Source: a virus. From it: a stretch of DNA of 59,533 nt. The DNA lies in IMG/VR virus record IMGVR_UViG_3300023180_000058, positions 1 to 59,533 of that record. One strand, given 5' to 3'. The notes under the pieces are model-generated. The model did not search any database and was not told the DNA's origin. It saw nothing but the letters and a program-made list of their open reading frames with translations. The position numbers and the translations under genes were made by a program. Below are positions 36,448 through 59,533 of the stretch, piece after piece. How positions within the stretch are numbered: position 1 is the first letter of the stretch; every line of letters begins with the position of its first letter.

Positions 36448-37071
36448 ATGCATAAACAATTATTGAGAGAGTTCTATGAACTTTGTGACGGTGGGGTTTG
36501 TCAAGACTTTTTAACAGAAGGTGAAAAGCGCAGAGTATCAGAAGGCGCTGTTATTCTTACTGGATGTTTGCAAAAGTATGGTGAGCGAAACGGCAATGGT
36601 CGTGTCTATCCGGAAAAAACACTTCGCAGAGAAGTAGATAACTACAAAAAAGTAGTTGCCGATCGTCGTTCTGTTGGTGAATTAGACCACCCTGATGACT
36701 CAGTTGTGAATCTTAAGAATGTTTCACATTTGATTACAGATATTTGGCTAGACGGCAATAAAGTAATGGGTAAGTTAGAAGTTCTACCCACTCCAGCAGG
36801 AGACATCTTAAAAGGTCTTGTAAATGCCGGCGTAAAAATAGGTATTTCTTCAAGGGGTCTTGGATCAGTTCGTGAAACTCGTGAAGGAACAATGGTTAAC
36901 GACGACTTCCAACTTATTTGCTTTGATATTGTTCAGGAACCATCAACACCAGGTGCTTTTATTGGCCCCACAAGATCTTCTTATATGAATGAAGACCTTA
37001 CAAGAACCGCTTTGGACAATACCAAAGAGCAAATAATACTTTCAAAAATTTATGACCTAGTAGGATTATAA
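36448..37071 (+). CDS. 21: Prohead core protease (gp21-like)
   Basis: 207 residues, close to T4 gp21 (212). Herpesvirus-protease-like serine peptidase: catalytic His in VGELDHPDD (H81) and nucleophile Ser in IGISSRG (S134/S135), with the flanking pattern NGNGRVYP at 49-55. It matures the prohead by cleaving scaffold and capsid proteins after (I/L)-x-E sites in T4. The ATG has AAAGGA 7 bases upstream and is preceded by a folded leader. TAATG overlap with the next gene. Confidence 0.93.
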   Translation: MHKQLLREFYELCDGGVCQDFLTEGEKRRVSEGAVILTGCLQKYGERNGNGRVYPEKTLRREVDNYKKVVADRRSVGELDHPDDSVVNLKNVSHLITDIWLDGNKVMGKLEVLPTPAGDILKGLVNAGVKIGISSRGLGSVRETREGTMVNDDFQLICFDIVQEPSTPGAFIGPTRSSYMNEDLTRTALDNTKEQIILSKIYDLVGL

Positions 37072-37463
37072 TGAATAAAGATGAACTCACAAAGATTTTA
37101 AAGCCTCTTATCAAAGAGTGCGTAAAAGAAGTTATTATGGAAGAGCCAGGAGTTCTTGCTCACATAATCAAAGAATCAGTGCAAGGCGTCTCTGTCTCAA
37201 CTATAACTGAAAGTAGAGATGAAGAGCCTATTCGTAAGTTTATGAAAAAAGCACAAAAAGCCAAGCCAAAGAGAGATCTCAACGAAACCAGAAAACGTCT
37301 CTTGGACTCAATCGGCGGCGCAGGCAACTTTGGCGGCGTGAACATTTTTGAAGGAACGGAGCCGCTAGCAGCCGCACCTTCCTCGCAACAAGAAAAATTC
37401 GGTGCTCTAAGGGACACAGATCCTAACGACGCCGGTGTAGATTTATCAGCTTTCGGACTATAG
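37071..37463 (+). CDS. Small protein, possible prohead core component
   Basis: 130 residues. The N-terminus is helical (MNKDELTKILKPLIKECVKEVIMEE), the middle is basic (AQKAKPKRDLNETRKRLL), and the C-terminus is Gly/Ala/Pro-rich and ends in DAGVDLSAFGL. No family recognised. Translationally coupled to the prohead protease, so it could be a gp67/gp68-type core protein or a protease substrate. Confidence 0.45.
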   Translation: MNKDELTKILKPLIKECVKEVIMEEPGVLAHIIKESVQGVSVSTITESRDEEPIRKFMKKAQKAKPKRDLNETRKRLLDSIGGAGNFGGVNIFEGTEPLAAAPSSQQEKFGALRDTDPNDAGVDLSAFGL

Positions 37464-37470
37464 GAGACCA

Positions 37471-37797
37471 ATGAGAAAGTACAACAAGTCAAGTAGAGGA
37501 AAATTTGAAGAATATGACCGAAAACTTGACAAGAAAAGAAAGAAGTATGGAAAGAAAATCAATGCCCTAGATGGAATTGAGCCATACCAAGTGGAAGTAA
37601 GGAACGGAGATGTCATGAAGGCATACAAAGTTCTAGAGAGGATGTTGAAGAAAGATCGCATCCTTGAAACTTACAGAGAAAGACAATATTACAAAAAACC
37701 TTCGGATGTTCGCAGCGAAGAAAAGCGAAGAAAAAAGAGAAGGCAAGAAAAAGAAAGAATAAGAAGACAGCTTGAAGAAGCAAAAGATAATTCTTAA
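37471..37797 (+). CDS. bS21-like ribosomal protein
   Basis: 108 residues. Residues 38-95 follow the bacterial small-subunit protein bS21: V-E-V-R-N-G-D-V-x-K-A-x-K..., then KKDRILETYRERQYYKKPSDVR, then a long Lys/Arg-rich helix. Cellular bS21 has the same order (V.VRE.E..D.AL..FKR..EKAGVL.E.RRREFYEKPT..R). A ~35-residue basic N-terminal extension is extra. In cells bS21 sits at the mRNA-exit/anti-Shine-Dalgarno platform of the 30S subunit. Phage-encoded bS21 is known, for example in pelagiphage HTVC008M and some huge phages. Here it has its own TAGGAG site inside the head-gene run. Confidence 0.75.
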   Translation: MRKYNKSSRGKFEEYDRKLDKKRKKYGKKINALDGIEPYQVEVRNGDVMKAYKVLERMLKKDRILETYRERQYYKKPSDVRSEEKRRKKRRQEKERIRRQLEEAKDNS

Positions 37798-37813: not shown

Positions 37814-38203
37814 ATGAGCGCATTTCAATATAGGAGTGGGTTGGGTAGCTCTGCTGCTTACCAAGTAAGTGCGATACCTTTTCTTAAAAAACAGACTACC
37901 AGTTTTCCAGGTGGGGCTACAAAGGAATTTACCTTTCCGCAAGTTACAAAATTTATAAAAATTGTTAATACCTCCGGTACTAGCACTTTGAATGTAGGTT
38001 TTTCATACTTGGGTGTAGACTCTGGTGACAATTATTTTACAGTTGGCCCCAACAGTGAATCTGCTATATATTATTGGAGAGTTTCAAGTGTTTTTGTAAA
38101 ACCATCCGGCGGCAGTGGAGCTATAGAAATTCACGCTGGTTTAACAACAGTTTCGGATCTAGAACTAACCAACAACTGGTCTGGATCGGTAGGAGTAGGA
38201 TAA
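37814..38203 (+). CDS. Small virion protein, tandem paralogue A
   Basis: 129 residues, beta-rich, starting MSAFQYRSGLGSSAAYQVSA and ending NNWSGSVGVG. It shares start, end and several internal blocks with the gene directly downstream. I associate the FQYRSGLG opening with marine phage proteins near the capsid genes. The small beta fold and position before scaffold and capsid suggest a head-decoration protein; no experimental role is known to me. TAGGAG lies 7 bases before the ATG. Confidence 0.5.
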   Translation: MSAFQYRSGLGSSAAYQVSAIPFLKKQTTSFPGGATKEFTFPQVTKFIKIVNTSGTSTLNVGFSYLGVDSGDNYFTVGPNSESAIYYWRVSSVFVKPSGGSGAIEIHAGLTTVSDLELTNNWSGSVGVG

Positions 38204-38204
38204 G

Positions 38205-38615
38205 ATGAGTGTTTTTCAGTATAGAAGTGGGTTAGGAAACTCTGCTTCTTATCAAGTAAGCTCAATACCCTACTTGTTAAAGGGCAGCCAAATTACCAAT
38301 GATACTATAGTTGAAATAGTTTTTCCAAATGTAACTAACTTTATAGAAATTTTTACAACAGCCGGTTCTGGAGATCTAAGAATAGGGTTTTCATCTCTAG
38401 GGATCCAAAAATCTGCCCCAGCCGGCACTAACTATATTCTGCATTCAGCTGGGACAAGTGAGATTTACGGCTGGCGTGTAACATCTTTGTTCTTACAGAG
38501 ACAAGCGACTGCTCCAACGGCCGTGACCGTGGATTATGAGATTCGTGCTGGTCTAACAACAATCGCCGCAAGTGAACTAGCCAATAACTGGTCAGGTTCT
38601 GCCGGCGTAGGATAA
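38205..38615 (+). CDS. Small virion protein, tandem paralogue B
   Basis: 136 residues, beginning one base after the paralogue's stop. MSVFQYRSGLGNSASYQVSS at the start and NNWSGSAGVG at the end mirror copy A; the middle differs by a few short insertions. The DNA of the first ~60 bases is also visibly similar, so this is a tandem duplication that has diverged. Two copies might let the capsid or neck carry two related subunits at different sites. Confidence 0.5.
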   Translation: MSVFQYRSGLGNSASYQVSSIPYLLKGSQITNDTIVEIVFPNVTNFIEIFTTAGSGDLRIGFSSLGIQKSAPAGTNYILHSAGTSEIYGWRVTSLFLQRQATAPTAVTVDYEIRAGLTTIAASELANNWSGSAGVG

Positions 38616-38707: not shown

Positions 38708-39778
38708 ATGTCAATGCTTGAACAAGCCATCGTAGATGCAAAAGACCTTCGTGAGGTTGCAAAAGCAAACGCCGAAGCCGAGGTTCTTGAAAAATATTCA
38801 TCACAAATCAAAGAAGCCGTCGACCGCCTTTTAGAGCAGGACGACGAAGAAATGGAAGCAGGGGACCTTGGAGCCGAAGCGGAAGCTGAAGTTCTAGACC
38901 TTGATGCTGCCGAAGAGACAAGCGAGGTTGAAGACGATCTACCAATGTCTTATGAAGCCCAGCCGGCCGATGAAAAAGAAGAAGCCGAGCAAATGATTGA
39001 CGACGTTTCTGACTCAATTGAACAAGCTCAAAACGTCCTTGATCAACTCGCCGTAAAAGTAGCGAAAATGGGCGAAGAAGATGGCGACGAAGAAATGGTC
39101 ACTATTGACCTAGACAAGCTTGAGGACTCCGAAGTAGAAATAGAAGACGCTACCGGTGAGCCAGAGGCTATAGCAGAAGAGATCGACATTTCTGAAGACG
39201 AGCTTCTTGGCCTTATGGAAAAGCTTACCGTTGATACTTCAGCGCAAAAAAGCGGCTGGGCAGGACGCCCCGACAGCCAAGTGTTCTTTGAACAAGAGCT
39301 TGAGCTAGCCCGCATGAGATCAACTGAGCTTGAAGAAGATAACGCTGCATTCAAAGCAGCCGTTAGAGAACTTACCGAGAGCAAGAACAGTTTAGAAAAA
39401 GAACTAACAGAAAAAAACAATGTAATAAAGAATACTGCAGTATTGGTTGAAAGCTTGCAGAATAAGCTTTCAGAGTCTCATCTCGTTAACACAAAACTGT
39501 TTTATACAAACAAAGCCCTATTAGATGACTCCTTGAATGAGCGGCAAAAAAGTAAAATTGTCGAAACAATCAACCGGGCCGACACGACCGATAAGGTCAA
39601 AGCTGTGTTTGAAACTCTATGTGAATCGGTTTCGTCTGAACCTGCAAAGAATGCTGGCCCAGAAAACTTGACTGAAGCGCTAAAAGTTAGAACACTTGTG
39701 GCTCGCCCCTCAAAAAAACAAACAATAAGCGAGTCAAGCGACGTTCTTCGTATGAAGAGACTAGCAGGCATACTTTAA
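38708..39778 (+). CDS. 22: Prohead scaffold protein (gp22-like)
   Basis: 356 residues. Directly before the major capsid gene, as in T4. Extremely acidic middle (about 45-180, long Asp/Glu runs), then helical and coiled-coil regions (about 195-290), ending SSDVLRMKRLAGIL. Scaffold proteins of this type form the prohead core and are degraded by the gp21 protease. Several (I/L)-x-E tripeptides are present as potential cut sites. Longer than T4 gp22 (269). The call rests on composition plus position. Confidence 0.85.
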   Translation: MSMLEQAIVDAKDLREVAKANAEAEVLEKYSSQIKEAVDRLLEQDDEEMEAGDLGAEAEAEVLDLDAAEETSEVEDDLPMSYEAQPADEKEEAEQMIDDVSDSIEQAQNVLDQLAVKVAKMGEEDGDEEMVTIDLDKLEDSEVEIEDATGEPEAIAEEIDISEDELLGLMEKLTVDTSAQKSGWAGRPDSQVFFEQELELARMRSTELEEDNAAFKAAVRELTESKNSLEKELTEKNNVIKNTAVLVESLQNKLSESHLVNTKLFYTNKALLDDSLNERQKSKIVETINRADTTDKVKAVFETLCESVSSEPAKNAGPENLTEALKVRTLVARPSKKQTISESSDVLRMKRLAGIL

Positions 39779-39799: not shown

Positions 39800-41518
39800 A
39801 TGTCAGTACTTAAGACACTCACAGAGGGCATTGAGCCCCGTGACCTTCACAAGGAGTCAAGTGCACTACTTAATAAGTGGGAGCGAACAGGACTTCTTGA
39901 GGGTCTAAACACAGAAGACCATCGTCACCAGATGGCTCGACTACTTGAAAACCAGGCCAAGGAGCTTCTTCGTGAATCATCCGCAATGAACTCCGGCGAC
40001 GTTGAAGGCTTTGCAGCAGTTGCATTCCCCCTCGTTCGACGTGTATTCGCATCACTTGTTGCCCAGGACCTAGTTTCTGTTCAGCCGATGTCACTTCCTT
40101 CAGGACTAATCTTCTTCCTAGACTTTACTTTCTCAAGTGATGGTACGACAATGCCACGTCTTGGCTATGCTGCCGATACTTCAGTTTACGGTGGAGGAAG
40201 AGTTGCTTCACAGATCACCGGAGGTGTTATTCTTACCGGCGCCAACGTTGAGACCGGCCCTTACGCACTTAACAACGGCTTTGCATCACCAACTGCTTCC
40301 GTGACTATTGCAACAACAATCGTTGCTTCAGGCTCTGTTACAGATGGCGGTGCCCTTGTATTTGGCGGCAGTTCAACAGGCTACGATCTCCAGAGACTTC
40401 TTCGCTTCGACGCTGACCTAACTTCAGGTTCGGCTTTCGCTGCTGCAACAATACCGCTTGCCACCCTAACAAGTGGCCAGTTCAACGAGGATAACTTTGT
40501 TGGCCTAACCCTTACCAGCGTTAGCGACGGACGTCAAGTTCGACGACTTACTGGCTTTGACCCAACAGACTCAACAAAGGTTCTTGTTGTTCTTGAGGCT
40601 TCAGGCTCAGAGACATCGAACACTCTTTCCTCATCACTAGATGCCGTAACAGCATGCACCCTCCCAATTGACGACGACTTCATTGGCGGCGCCCTTGGTG
40701 CAGTTGTTGGTGATGCAACTTGGGGACTTGAGGGCAACCCTAATATCCCTGAGATTGACATCAAGGTCGACTCCGTATCAGTCACCGCAGTCACCAAGAA
40801 GCTTAAGGCGAAGTGGACTCCGGAACTTGGTCAGGACCTCAACGCATACCACAACATGGACGCAGAGGTTGAGCTTACTTCAATCCTTTCAGAGCAGGTT
40901 GCTCTTGAGATTGATCGTGAGATTCTTGAAGACCTTGTTAAGGGCGCAACTGCTGGTACATTCTACTGGTCACGTCGACCGGGTCGTTTCCTCGACCGTG
41001 AAACCGGCGCTGATATCGCCAATGGGACCCAGAACGAGAGCCTTCTTGGAGCCGACTTCACTGGTAATGTTTCAGAGTGGTACGAAACTCTCATTGAAAC
41101 AATCAATGATGTTTCCGCTCAGATCCACCGTAAGACACTTCGTGGCGGCGCCAACTATATTGTTGTCTCCCCTGAAATGGCTAACATTCTTGAGTTCACC
41201 GCCGGCTTCCGTGCTGCTGTAACTCACGATGATGACCGTGGGTCCGTTGGTGCTGTTCGTGTTGGTTCACTTTCCAAGAAGTTTGACGTTTATGTCGACC
41301 CCTACTTCCTACGCAATGTCGTACTAGTTGGTCGCAAGGGCGCTTCCTTCCTTGAGAGTGGCTACGTATACGCTCCGTATGTTCCTCTCCAGGTGACTCC
41401 GACTATCTTCGGTGTCGAGGACTTCGTACCTCGTAAGGGTGTCATGACCCGTTACGCCAAGAAGATGGTTCGTCCGGACATGTACGGTCTAGTTGTCTGC
41501 AAGGATTTCCTTGGCTAA
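39800..41518 (+). CDS. 23: Major capsid protein (gp23-like)
   Basis: 572 residues (T4: 521). Conserved blocks: SGDVEGFAAVAFPLVRRVFA near 65-84, LVSVQPMSLPSGLIFFLDF, KAKWTPELGQDLNAYHNMDAE, and the C-terminal VTPTIFGVEDFVPRKGVMTRYAKKMVRP. Likely prohead-protease cut sites of the (I/L)-x-E type are LLE (ending at 50) and LRE (ending at 59), which would remove an N-terminal propeptide as in T4. The gene uses CGT/CGA and GC-ending codons more than its neighbours, as expected for the most abundant protein. AAGGAG precedes the ATG. A strong terminator follows. Confidence 0.97.
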   Translation: MSVLKTLTEGIEPRDLHKESSALLNKWERTGLLEGLNTEDHRHQMARLLENQAKELLRESSAMNSGDVEGFAAVAFPLVRRVFASLVAQDLVSVQPMSLPSGLIFFLDFTFSSDGTTMPRLGYAADTSVYGGGRVASQITGGVILTGANVETGPYALNNGFASPTASVTIATTIVASGSVTDGGALVFGGSSTGYDLQRLLRFDADLTSGSAFAAATIPLATLTSGQFNEDNFVGLTLTSVSDGRQVRRLTGFDPTDSTKVLVVLEASGSETSNTLSSSLDAVTACTLPIDDDFIGGALGAVVGDATWGLEGNPNIPEIDIKVDSVSVTAVTKKLKAKWTPELGQDLNAYHNMDAEVELTSILSEQVALEIDREILEDLVKGATAGTFYWSRRPGRFLDRETGADIANGTQNESLLGADFTGNVSEWYETLIETINDVSAQIHRKTLRGGANYIVVSPEMANILEFTAGFRAAVTHDDDRGSVGAVRVGSLSKKFDVYVDPYFLRNVVLVGRKGASFLESGYVYAPYVPLQVTPTIFGVEDFVPRKGVMTRYAKKMVRPDMYGLVVCKDFLG

Positions 41519-58084: not shown

Positions 58085-58941
58085 TTAAAAAAGTTATTGG
58101 TATTGGCGACGGCGGAAGCCAGATTGCCGAACATTTTAAAAAGTATTATGATTATTCTGTTTTTTGCGTTTCTGAAAAAGGTGATATCAAGCTCCCTGAA
58201 GCAAAAAAAGTAGAAGATCTAGAAAGCAAAATGTTCGAGACCAAGAAAAAATGGTCAAAAACATTAAAAGCTTTTGCTGCAGACGATGAATTACTTTTTA
58301 TTGTTAATGGAGCAGCAAGATCAGCAGCAACTTCCTTGGTTTTAATGGGAGAAGTCAAAGAAAACCCAAAAACGGTGATCTTTGTTAAATCAGACCCAAA
58401 TACAATCAACGGAACAGCAAAATTGCAACAAAGAGCCGCTCTAATGGTTATGCAGGAGTTTGCACGCTCTGGATTGATCGAAAAAATGTTTATTGTTGAT
58501 AACATGGCATTAGAAAAGATCAACCCAGAAGTTAATATTCTAAATTATTATGAGCAACTAAACGATCTTATTGTTTCAACTTTTCATATGATCAACTTTT
58601 GCAAGGACCAGCGCCCCGTGCTAAATACAACGGACGATCCAGTGGAAACCGCCCGTATTGCAACGCTTGGGGCATTTAATGTCGAGAATGGCGAAAAAAA
58701 GCTTTTTTATTCTCTTGACTTCCCGAGAGAGACAAGCTATATTTATGTTCTGAACGATGAGGCACTAAAAGAACCGGCTAAACTGATGAACATTAAAGAC
58801 ATCAACACGGCTGCAAACAATGCAGAGCCATCAAATGCATCGTCATTTGTTATTTATCGTTCGGACTTAGAACACAACTATGGATATATTGTGCAATACA
58901 GCACGATGATTCAAGAACAGTTGATAGAAAACCAAAACTAA
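58081..58941 (+). CDS. Divergent tubulin/FtsZ-fold-like protein
   Basis: 286 residues. The layout follows FtsZ/tubulin: opening strand plus glycine loop VIGIGDGGSQIAEHF (residues 5-19; FtsZ has VIGVGG.G.NAVN), then DELLFIVNGAARSAATS (69-85) where FtsZ has the GGGTGTG nucleotide loop, then TVIFVKSDPNTINGTAKL..RAALMVMQEF (FtsZ T.PF.FEG..R...A), FIVDNMALEKI (FtsZ 'IPND.L'), and LNDLIVSTFHMIN. The signature loop is degenerate (only one Gly remains), so GTP binding may be lost or altered. A Rossmann-like protein of another family is the alternative. Coupled to the polymerase gene by an ATGA overlap. Confidence 0.5.
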   Translation: MIKKVIGIGDGGSQIAEHFKKYYDYSVFCVSEKGDIKLPEAKKVEDLESKMFETKKKWSKTLKAFAADDELLFIVNGAARSAATSLVLMGEVKENPKTVIFVKSDPNTINGTAKLQQRAALMVMQEFARSGLIEKMFIVDNMALEKINPEVNILNYYEQLNDLIVSTFHMINFCKDQRPVLNTTDDPVETARIATLGAFNVENGEKKLFYSLDFPRETSYIYVLNDEALKEPAKLMNIKDINTAANNAEPSNASSFVIYRSDLEHNYGYIVQYSTMIQEQLIENQN

Positions 58942-58942
58942 G

Positions 58943-59016
58943 ACATCACGATCGCCGCCGGACATTTTTTCGTTTTTACGTGGATAAGATCCGGCGCTCG
59001 ATCGTCTAACTGATGT
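58943..59016. repeat. Long nested inverted repeat in the gap before the gp32-like gene
   Basis: Three arms pair in order. ACATCACGATCG (58943-58954) and GCCGGA (58957-58962) face TCCGGC (58990-58995), CGATCG (58999-59004) and TGATGT (59011-59016). That gives 18 pairs with small internal loops around a 27-base T-rich loop. It starts right after the tubulin-like stop. It could act as an RNA hairpin, a protein-binding cruciform or an origin element. Confidence 0.6.
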
Positions 59017-59035
59017 GAGGCGCTCACGGGCGCTC
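58993..59035 (+). repeat. Three GGCGCTC direct repeats
   Basis: Copies at 58993-58999, 59019-59025 and 59029-59035 (spacing 26 and 10 bases). The middle copy sits in the small palindrome GTGAG-GCG-CTCAC (59015-59027). They lie just upstream of the sigma70-like promoter and could be iterated protein-binding sites. Confidence 0.55.
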
Positions 59036-59048
59036 GACCGATGGGAAA

Positions 59049-59065
59049 CGAACGCTTGACGTTCG
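59049..59065. promoter_or_regulatory. Candidate operator: CGAACG / CGTTCG inverted repeat
   Basis: CGAACG (59049-59054), five-base spacer, CGTTCG (59060-59065). It covers the -35 element TTGACG at 59056-59061, so a protein bound here would block RNA polymerase. Confidence 0.5.
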
Positions 59066-59084
59066 CTACTCTCTGGTGTATAAT
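59056..59084 (+). promoter_or_regulatory. Sigma70-like promoter for the gp32-like gene
   Basis: -35 TTGACG (5 of 6), 17-base spacer, -10 TATAAT (59079-59084, 6 of 6). Expected transcription start near 59091, giving a leader of about 47 bases before the ATG at 59138. This is the best host-type promoter in the window and contrasts with the CTATTTATA motif at structural genes. Confidence 0.82.
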
Positions 59085-59095
59085 AAACTAAATTT

Positions 59096-59114
59096 GGTGA
59101 CCATTCGGGTCGCC
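59096..59114 (+). promoter_or_regulatory. Leader hairpin before the gp32-like gene
   Basis: GGTGACC (59096-59102) pairs with GGTCGCC (59108-59114), one G-T pair, loop ATTCG. It lies 23 bases before the ATG, upstream of AAAGGAGG. T4 gp32 represses its own mRNA through a folded leader; this hairpin may serve the same purpose. Confidence 0.45.
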
Positions 59115-59137
59115 ACGGCCAACCAAAGGAGGTACAC

Positions 59138-59533
59138 ATGGCTATTGATATGAGCAAGATGAAAAAGAAGTTGGATCAGCTGAACAATAAGGGCAGCACC
59201 GGAGGCCAATACCTAAAGATGGAGCTAGGGAATACTTATGAGATTCGTATTCTTCCTACGCCTGATGGCGATCCATTCAAGCAGTATTTTGTCCACTATC
59301 GTGTGGGCGACTCTCAGCCGTTCCTTTCACCGAAGAAGAACTTTAATGAGGACGATGCGCTTGATCGGTTCGTGCGAAAGCTTTATGATGAAGGCTCGGA
59401 AGAAAGCCGAAACATGGCTCGTGACTTGTCTGCCAAGGCTCGTTTCTTCTCGCCTGTAATTGTTCGTGGCCAGGAAGATGAAGGTCCGAAGGTTTGGTCA
59501 TACTCAAAGACTGTTTACCAGGAACTTCTAAAG
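59138..59533 (+). CDS. 32: ssDNA-binding protein, gp32-like (3' end missing)
   Basis: 132 codons to the end of the window with no stop; the gene continues beyond. It starts MAIDMSKMKKKLDQLNNKG behind AAAGGAGGT. Residues 28-60 (LGNTYEIRILPTPDGDPFKQYFVHYRV) and 90-110 (ARDLSAKARFFSPVIVRGQEDEG) match the gp32 OB-fold region of T4-like phages. Gp32 coats single-stranded DNA and organises replication, recombination and repair. The zinc finger and acidic tail, if present, lie outside the window. It has its own sigma70-like promoter, possible operator and leader hairpin, which fits early and autoregulated expression. Confidence 0.88.
   Translation, partial: MAIDMSKMKKKLDQLNNKGSTGGQYLKMELGNTYEIRILPTPDGDPFKQYFVHYRVGDSQPFLSPKKNFNEDDALDRFVRKLYDEGSEESRNMARDLSAKARFFSPVIVRGQEDEGPKVWSYSKTVYQELLK

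Follow-up and report, generated by a model that had tools for sequence, protein, structure and literature searches.

The stretch of DNA analysed here (59,533 nt in length, hereafter the window) belongs to a large aquatic phage which has its own gene for the ribosomal protein bS21 among its capsid genes. The genes and features of this region are the following, all on the plus strand:

31216, + strand: TerL
32791, + strand: portal, followed by three small genes
36448..37071, + strand: gp21-like prohead protease (Peptidase_S77; PF03420, 2.2e-28; PHROG 207, 6.6e-53)
37071..37463, + strand: small conserved protein in the interval between protease and bS21, in the same place in relatives
37462..37467, + strand: Shine-Dalgarno (SD) sequence AGGAGA, ending 3 bases 5' of the bS21 ATG
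37471..37797, + strand: phage bS21 gene, 108 aa, ATG start (matches to PF01165 and to bS21 in the PDB)
37471..37581, + strand: basic N-terminal extension of bS21, residues 1-37 (alignment A1, dN/dS)
37582..37755, + strand: bS21 domain, residues 38-95 (Pfam match to residues 40-92, predicted helices)
37687..37704, + strand: YYKKPS turn, residues 73-78 (from the sequence; KPS invariant in alignment A7)
37738..37740, + strand: Arg90 of bS21, at the position of Tyr54 of F. johnsoniae bS21 (KPS + 12)
37814-38203 and 38205-38615, + strand: two tandem paralogous ORFs 3' of bS21, 48% identical to each other
38708..39778, + strand: acidic scaffold-like protein directly 5' of the capsid gene (position, composition, synteny)
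39800..41518, + strand: gp23-like major capsid protein (PF07068, 2.1e-72)
41623, + strand: neck
44233, + strand: tail sheath
47118, + strand: tube

The genes from TerL to tube, bS21 included, lie on a single strand and are separated by short intergenic gaps. An earlier note on this DNA had placed the bS21-like gene inside the head-gene block, and it is indeed found there, with the prohead protease upstream and the scaffold-like and gp23-like genes downstream. The small protein at 37071..37463 matched no Pfam or PHROG family; the product of 38708..39778 matched no Pfam family and is called a scaffold from its position and composition only. No T4-type late promoter (TATAAATA) was found upstream of the head genes of the window, and sigma-70-like sites numbered 13 against an expected 7.1 (sd 3.1). 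In relatives the stretch between bS21 and the scaffold gene ranges from approximately 0.9 to 2.9 kb, and given this variation in length the paralog pair at 37814-38615 looks like a variable cassette.

Judged by sequence comparison, the ORF at 37471-37797 is a genuine bS21. Residues 40-92 score 38.2 bits against PF01165 (E=1.2e-9; curated cut-off 27 bits), PHROG 21469 ("ribosomal protein S21") matches with E=1.3e-3, and bS21 chains of the PDB match with E=1e-5 from the single sequence and 1.6e-8 from a family profile, mitochondrial bS21 ranking first. Neither five composition-preserving shuffles nor the reversed protein gave any S21 match, which rules out an artefact of lysine and arginine composition as the source of the assignment. 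A start codon further downstream is ruled out by the conserved SD at the 37471 ATG and by purifying selection on the extension; the AGGAGA keeps its position in the relatives L002-L013 and has a duplex energy of -7.3 kcal/mol. AlphaFold2 (seven relatives) predicts helices at 48-73 and 77-106 which meet at the YKK turn (74-76), with a modest confidence for the window protein (mean pLDDT 70, pTM 0.34), and Foldseek with this low-confidence model gave zero significant matches. The reading of the earlier note thus holds as regards the bS21 identity with its PF01165 match and the YYKKPS block, and the two helices joined at the KP turn are predicted. When full-length window bS21 was searched by tblastn against 50,697 phage records nothing was found at E<=0.01, while the domain alone gave weak matches in public phage records (best E ~2e-3), pelagiphage bS21s at the top. 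The bS21 proteins of solved ribosomes, both mitochondrial and bacterial, share with the window protein the Pfam family, the two-helix plan and the KP turn; however, the domain match begins at residue 3-23 of the PDB chains and at about residue 40 of the window protein.

Conservation of the locus was surveyed in the best 80 relatives of the protease in IMG/VR, which were chosen by protease in order to avoid sampling by bS21. As 16 of these loci end too soon 3' of the protease, 64 were evaluable. A bS21 frame was present within 4 kb downstream of the protease in 60 of them (median distance 484 nt), in all 60 on the protease strand; two of the other four gave insignificant candidates only and two gave none. 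Its presence in 60 of 64 loci sampled by protease makes bS21 a near-core gene of this lineage. Slot-mates carry ordinary bS21, with PF01165 E-values down to 2.5e-14. As far as the loci of the relatives extend, the genes flanking bS21 keep their order, and the same order is also found in L015 (TerL 58%), where bS21 is without the extension.

One relative with the extended bS21 sits on a contig of 168,882 bp, and since its two ends both align to one and the same part of the window it appears to be a nearly complete, circularly permuted genome. Pfam families found in this relative (L025-L029) include chaperonin (Cpn60), Clp protease, Hsp20, UvdE, DNA polymerase III alpha subunit, IMP dehydrogenase and adenylosuccinate synthetase; of the families listed, none concerned photosynthesis or otherwise pointed to a host. 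It also encodes a complete one-piece tmRNA (RF00023; L025:9696-10006, minus strand) with the tag ANNNVEFDSVALAA, and several tRNAs; no tRNA is present in the 59,533-nt window. A non-coding gap of the window (58941-59138) holds a motif of about 50 bases which recurs three times in the 169-kb relative, near 97.7, 100.0 and 104.5 kb. These recurrences lie close to an array of about a dozen tandem paralogs of 120-168 aa (L026:12407-15005 and L027:67-2314; about 92-102 kb of contig IMGVR_UViG_3300020595_000009) with the repeat unit NGxKxWxLNGKxHREDGPA.

The extra basic N-terminal extension described by the earlier note is real, with 14 K/R against 6 D/E in residues 1-37. Invariant positions in alignment A1 are KYN, YD, N31-A32 and I36-Q40 (IEPYQ), and AlphaFold2 predicts, with modest confidence, a helix at 13-26. 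Comparison of the window bS21 with its nearest relative gave dN/dS of about 0.09 for the extension, 0.12 for the core and 0.29 for the C-terminal tail, rough values from few sites; the extension and the bS21 domain are under purifying selection. The same extension was found in 13 IMG/VR relatives. In this window clade 38-40 residues precede the domain, as opposed to mostly 0-24 in the other slot-mates, from which the extension sequence is absent; L114 and L119 have 34 residues before the domain, of a sequence unlike that of the window clade, and the 58 residues of L139 are probably due to a misplaced start. The extension alone had no convincing match among solved proteins (best 0.09). No cellular relative of the extended form was found in bacterial or archaeal genomes with patterns drawn mainly from this divergent clade, a search which leaves room for cellular sources.

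The clade also stands apart in the domain itself. At a protease identity of 60-70% the bS21 domains of the window clade and of the others are 34% identical (maximum 47), against a median of 46% (maximum 79) for the other pairs. By this measure the domain of the window clade is more diverged than its neighbours predict, which may reflect either faster change or gene replacement, and could indicate a changed function. A small tree, only a hint given its approximately 55 columns, groups the window clade (support 0.87) and places it adjoining mitochondrial bS21 and L117.

The mean SD pairing energy in the window is -5.6 kcal/mol at gene starts versus -1.7 kcal/mol at internal ATGs. By capsid and terminase the nearest cultured phages are Microcystis phage Mel-JY01, where the energy at starts (-5.3) is similar to that of the window, and Flavobacterium phage immuto, which is without bS21 and avoids SD (-0.3 at starts versus -2.2 at internal sites). 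SD is also depleted at the gene starts of the 484-kb metagenomic phage LR756508, which carries a bS21 ahead of its own scaffold-like and capsid genes. Tyr54 of F. johnsoniae bS21 has been reported to help block the anti-SD (PMC9976891), and Bacteroidetes bS21 phages are reported to keep an aromatic residue at this position (PMC9723584). The equivalent residue is Arg in the window and Arg or Lys across its clade, i.e., basic and not aromatic. Within the survey of protease relatives position 54 is Tyr in an SD-avoiding phage (L041, mean -0.02) and Phe in a phage with weak SD (L084, -1.75), but His in one with strong SD (L138, -7.19), so that a trend between aromatic residues and weak SD is made up of very few cases. 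The strong use of SD together with the lack of an aromatic anti-SD-blocking residue indicates that the window phage is not of the SD-blind Bacteroidetes type. The comparison with the anti-SD of the host suggested by the earlier note is in this way answered in part, from the side of the phage, by its SD-led starts and the basic residue at the Tyr54 position. The simplest reading is that the host reads SD and would lie outside the Bacteroidia; alternatively, the phage bS21 may instead free the anti-SD of an SD-blind host.

Several features of the locus have precedents. In 388 of 900 published bS21 phages core structural genes are reported at most 10 genes away (PMC9723584). The phages described by Chen 2022 (PMC9723584) resemble the window in having bS21 near prohead protease and major capsid genes; they too are large, and they carry chaperone, Clp protease and sugar genes. 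In their clades a to e, however, bS21 is described as lying on the other strand from the structural genes, whereas here it shares their strand, in the window as in 60 of 60 relatives; furthermore, they are reported to have an SD-less Bacteroidetes host and an aromatic residue 54, unlike the SD-led genes, the basic residue 54 and the 38-40-aa extension found here. The bS21-encoding Pelagibacter phages (HTVC008M and others; PMC6375957) are likewise phages of an aquatic bacterium; their bS21 is approximately 39-49% identical to the window domain over about 40 residues, and an extension such as that of the window goes unmentioned in the account given there. Mel-JY01 (PP395634) has the same slot and strand as the window, the order being protease, small gene, annotated RpsU, scaffold-like gene and capsid. 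Its genes are also SD-led and its capsid and terminase are about 44-46% identical to those of the window, but its RpsU has 75 aa, lacks the extension and is only 28% identical to the window bS21. Directly 3' of RpsU Mel-JY01 encodes a lysine-rich protein (L033:9431-10597) whose C-terminal half is ADP-ribosyltransferase-like by eye.

We consider it probable, though well short of certain, that the product of the gene is a functional viral bS21 which is made late, enters the host 30S subunit and favours SD-led late phage mRNAs. From the position among the head genes we infer late expression of the window bS21, and late transcription together with head genes has been reported for other bS21 phages by metatranscriptomics (PMC9723584); the lack of a T4-type late promoter upstream of the head genes speaks against it. 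Translated from the head-gene mRNA, the protein would enter the host 30S during capsid protein synthesis, either replacing or alongside the host bS21, as pelagiphage bS21 is reported to enter E. coli ribosomes (PMC6375957). There, next to the SD/anti-SD helix, it would tune initiation so that the abundant and strongly SD-led late phage mRNAs are favoured, a bias of the 30S towards phage mRNA being a published hypothesis (PMC6375957, PMC9723584). The extension would probably add a platform contact near the mRNA exit, with 16S rRNA, a neighbouring ribosomal protein or the mRNA. We regard as doubtful the more far-reaching proposal that the arm and the re-shaped domain make the 30S phage-specialised through a new contact with the mRNA leader, 16S rRNA or another phage factor.

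It is unlikely that the protein is instead a basic internal head or core protein derived from bS21, packed in the prohead or bound to DNA and possibly injected, with no ribosomal role, even if it is very basic and encoded between the protease and the scaffold and capsid genes. In T4 the equivalent protease-to-capsid region is where genes of the prohead core are found. Selection nevertheless preserves the bS21 core and its KPS turn, the slot-mates hold ordinary bS21, and inspection of the extension revealed no obvious gp21-type cleavage site ([I/L]xE in T4) which would release it. Packaging of phage bS21 into virions has been raised by Chen 2022 (PMC9723584). Less plausible still is a dominant inhibitor, which would enter host ribosomes and slow host translation with no favouring of phage mRNA. 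Pelagiphage bS21 in E. coli ribosomes is reported to bring GFP synthesis in vitro down to about 5% (PMC6375957), so that the effect of a viral bS21 may be inhibition and not redirection, or it may depend on its own host; that test, however, used the ribosomes of a foreign host, and the window bS21 is grouped with the late genes, at a stage at which translation is needed by the phage too. Least probable is a plain dosage effect, in which bS21 occupancy of host ribosomes is restored as a long infection proceeds and phage mRNA is not preferred, since, for all its retention by nearly all relatives and the loose, exchangeable binding reported for bS21 (PMC6375957), a plain copy would have no need of an extension conserved within this clade or of a domain that has diverged to an unusual degree.

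A late-made phage bS21 which biases 30S initiation, including its placement by protease and capsid genes, has already been put forward (Mizuno 2019; Chen 2022). What is provisionally new here is the near-core slot, a clade with a conserved extension and a diverged domain, and a type which uses SD and is non-aromatic at position 54. No description of an extended, diverged bS21 clade was found in the parts of the phage-bS21 literature consulted, and its novelty is provisional, being judged by that literature and not by all published phage bS21 sequences. Whether phage-encoded ribosomal proteins yield specialised ribosomes is a question raised in the publications of 2019-2022, and the lineage offers natural variants for a direct test, arm against no arm and SD-using against SD-avoiding phages, with infection experiments feasible through the cultured same-slot relative, Microcystis phage Mel-JY01. 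If the more far-reaching proposal on the arm and the re-shaped domain were true, the bS21 of the window clade would be a dedicated viral initiation selector and not a spare host part.
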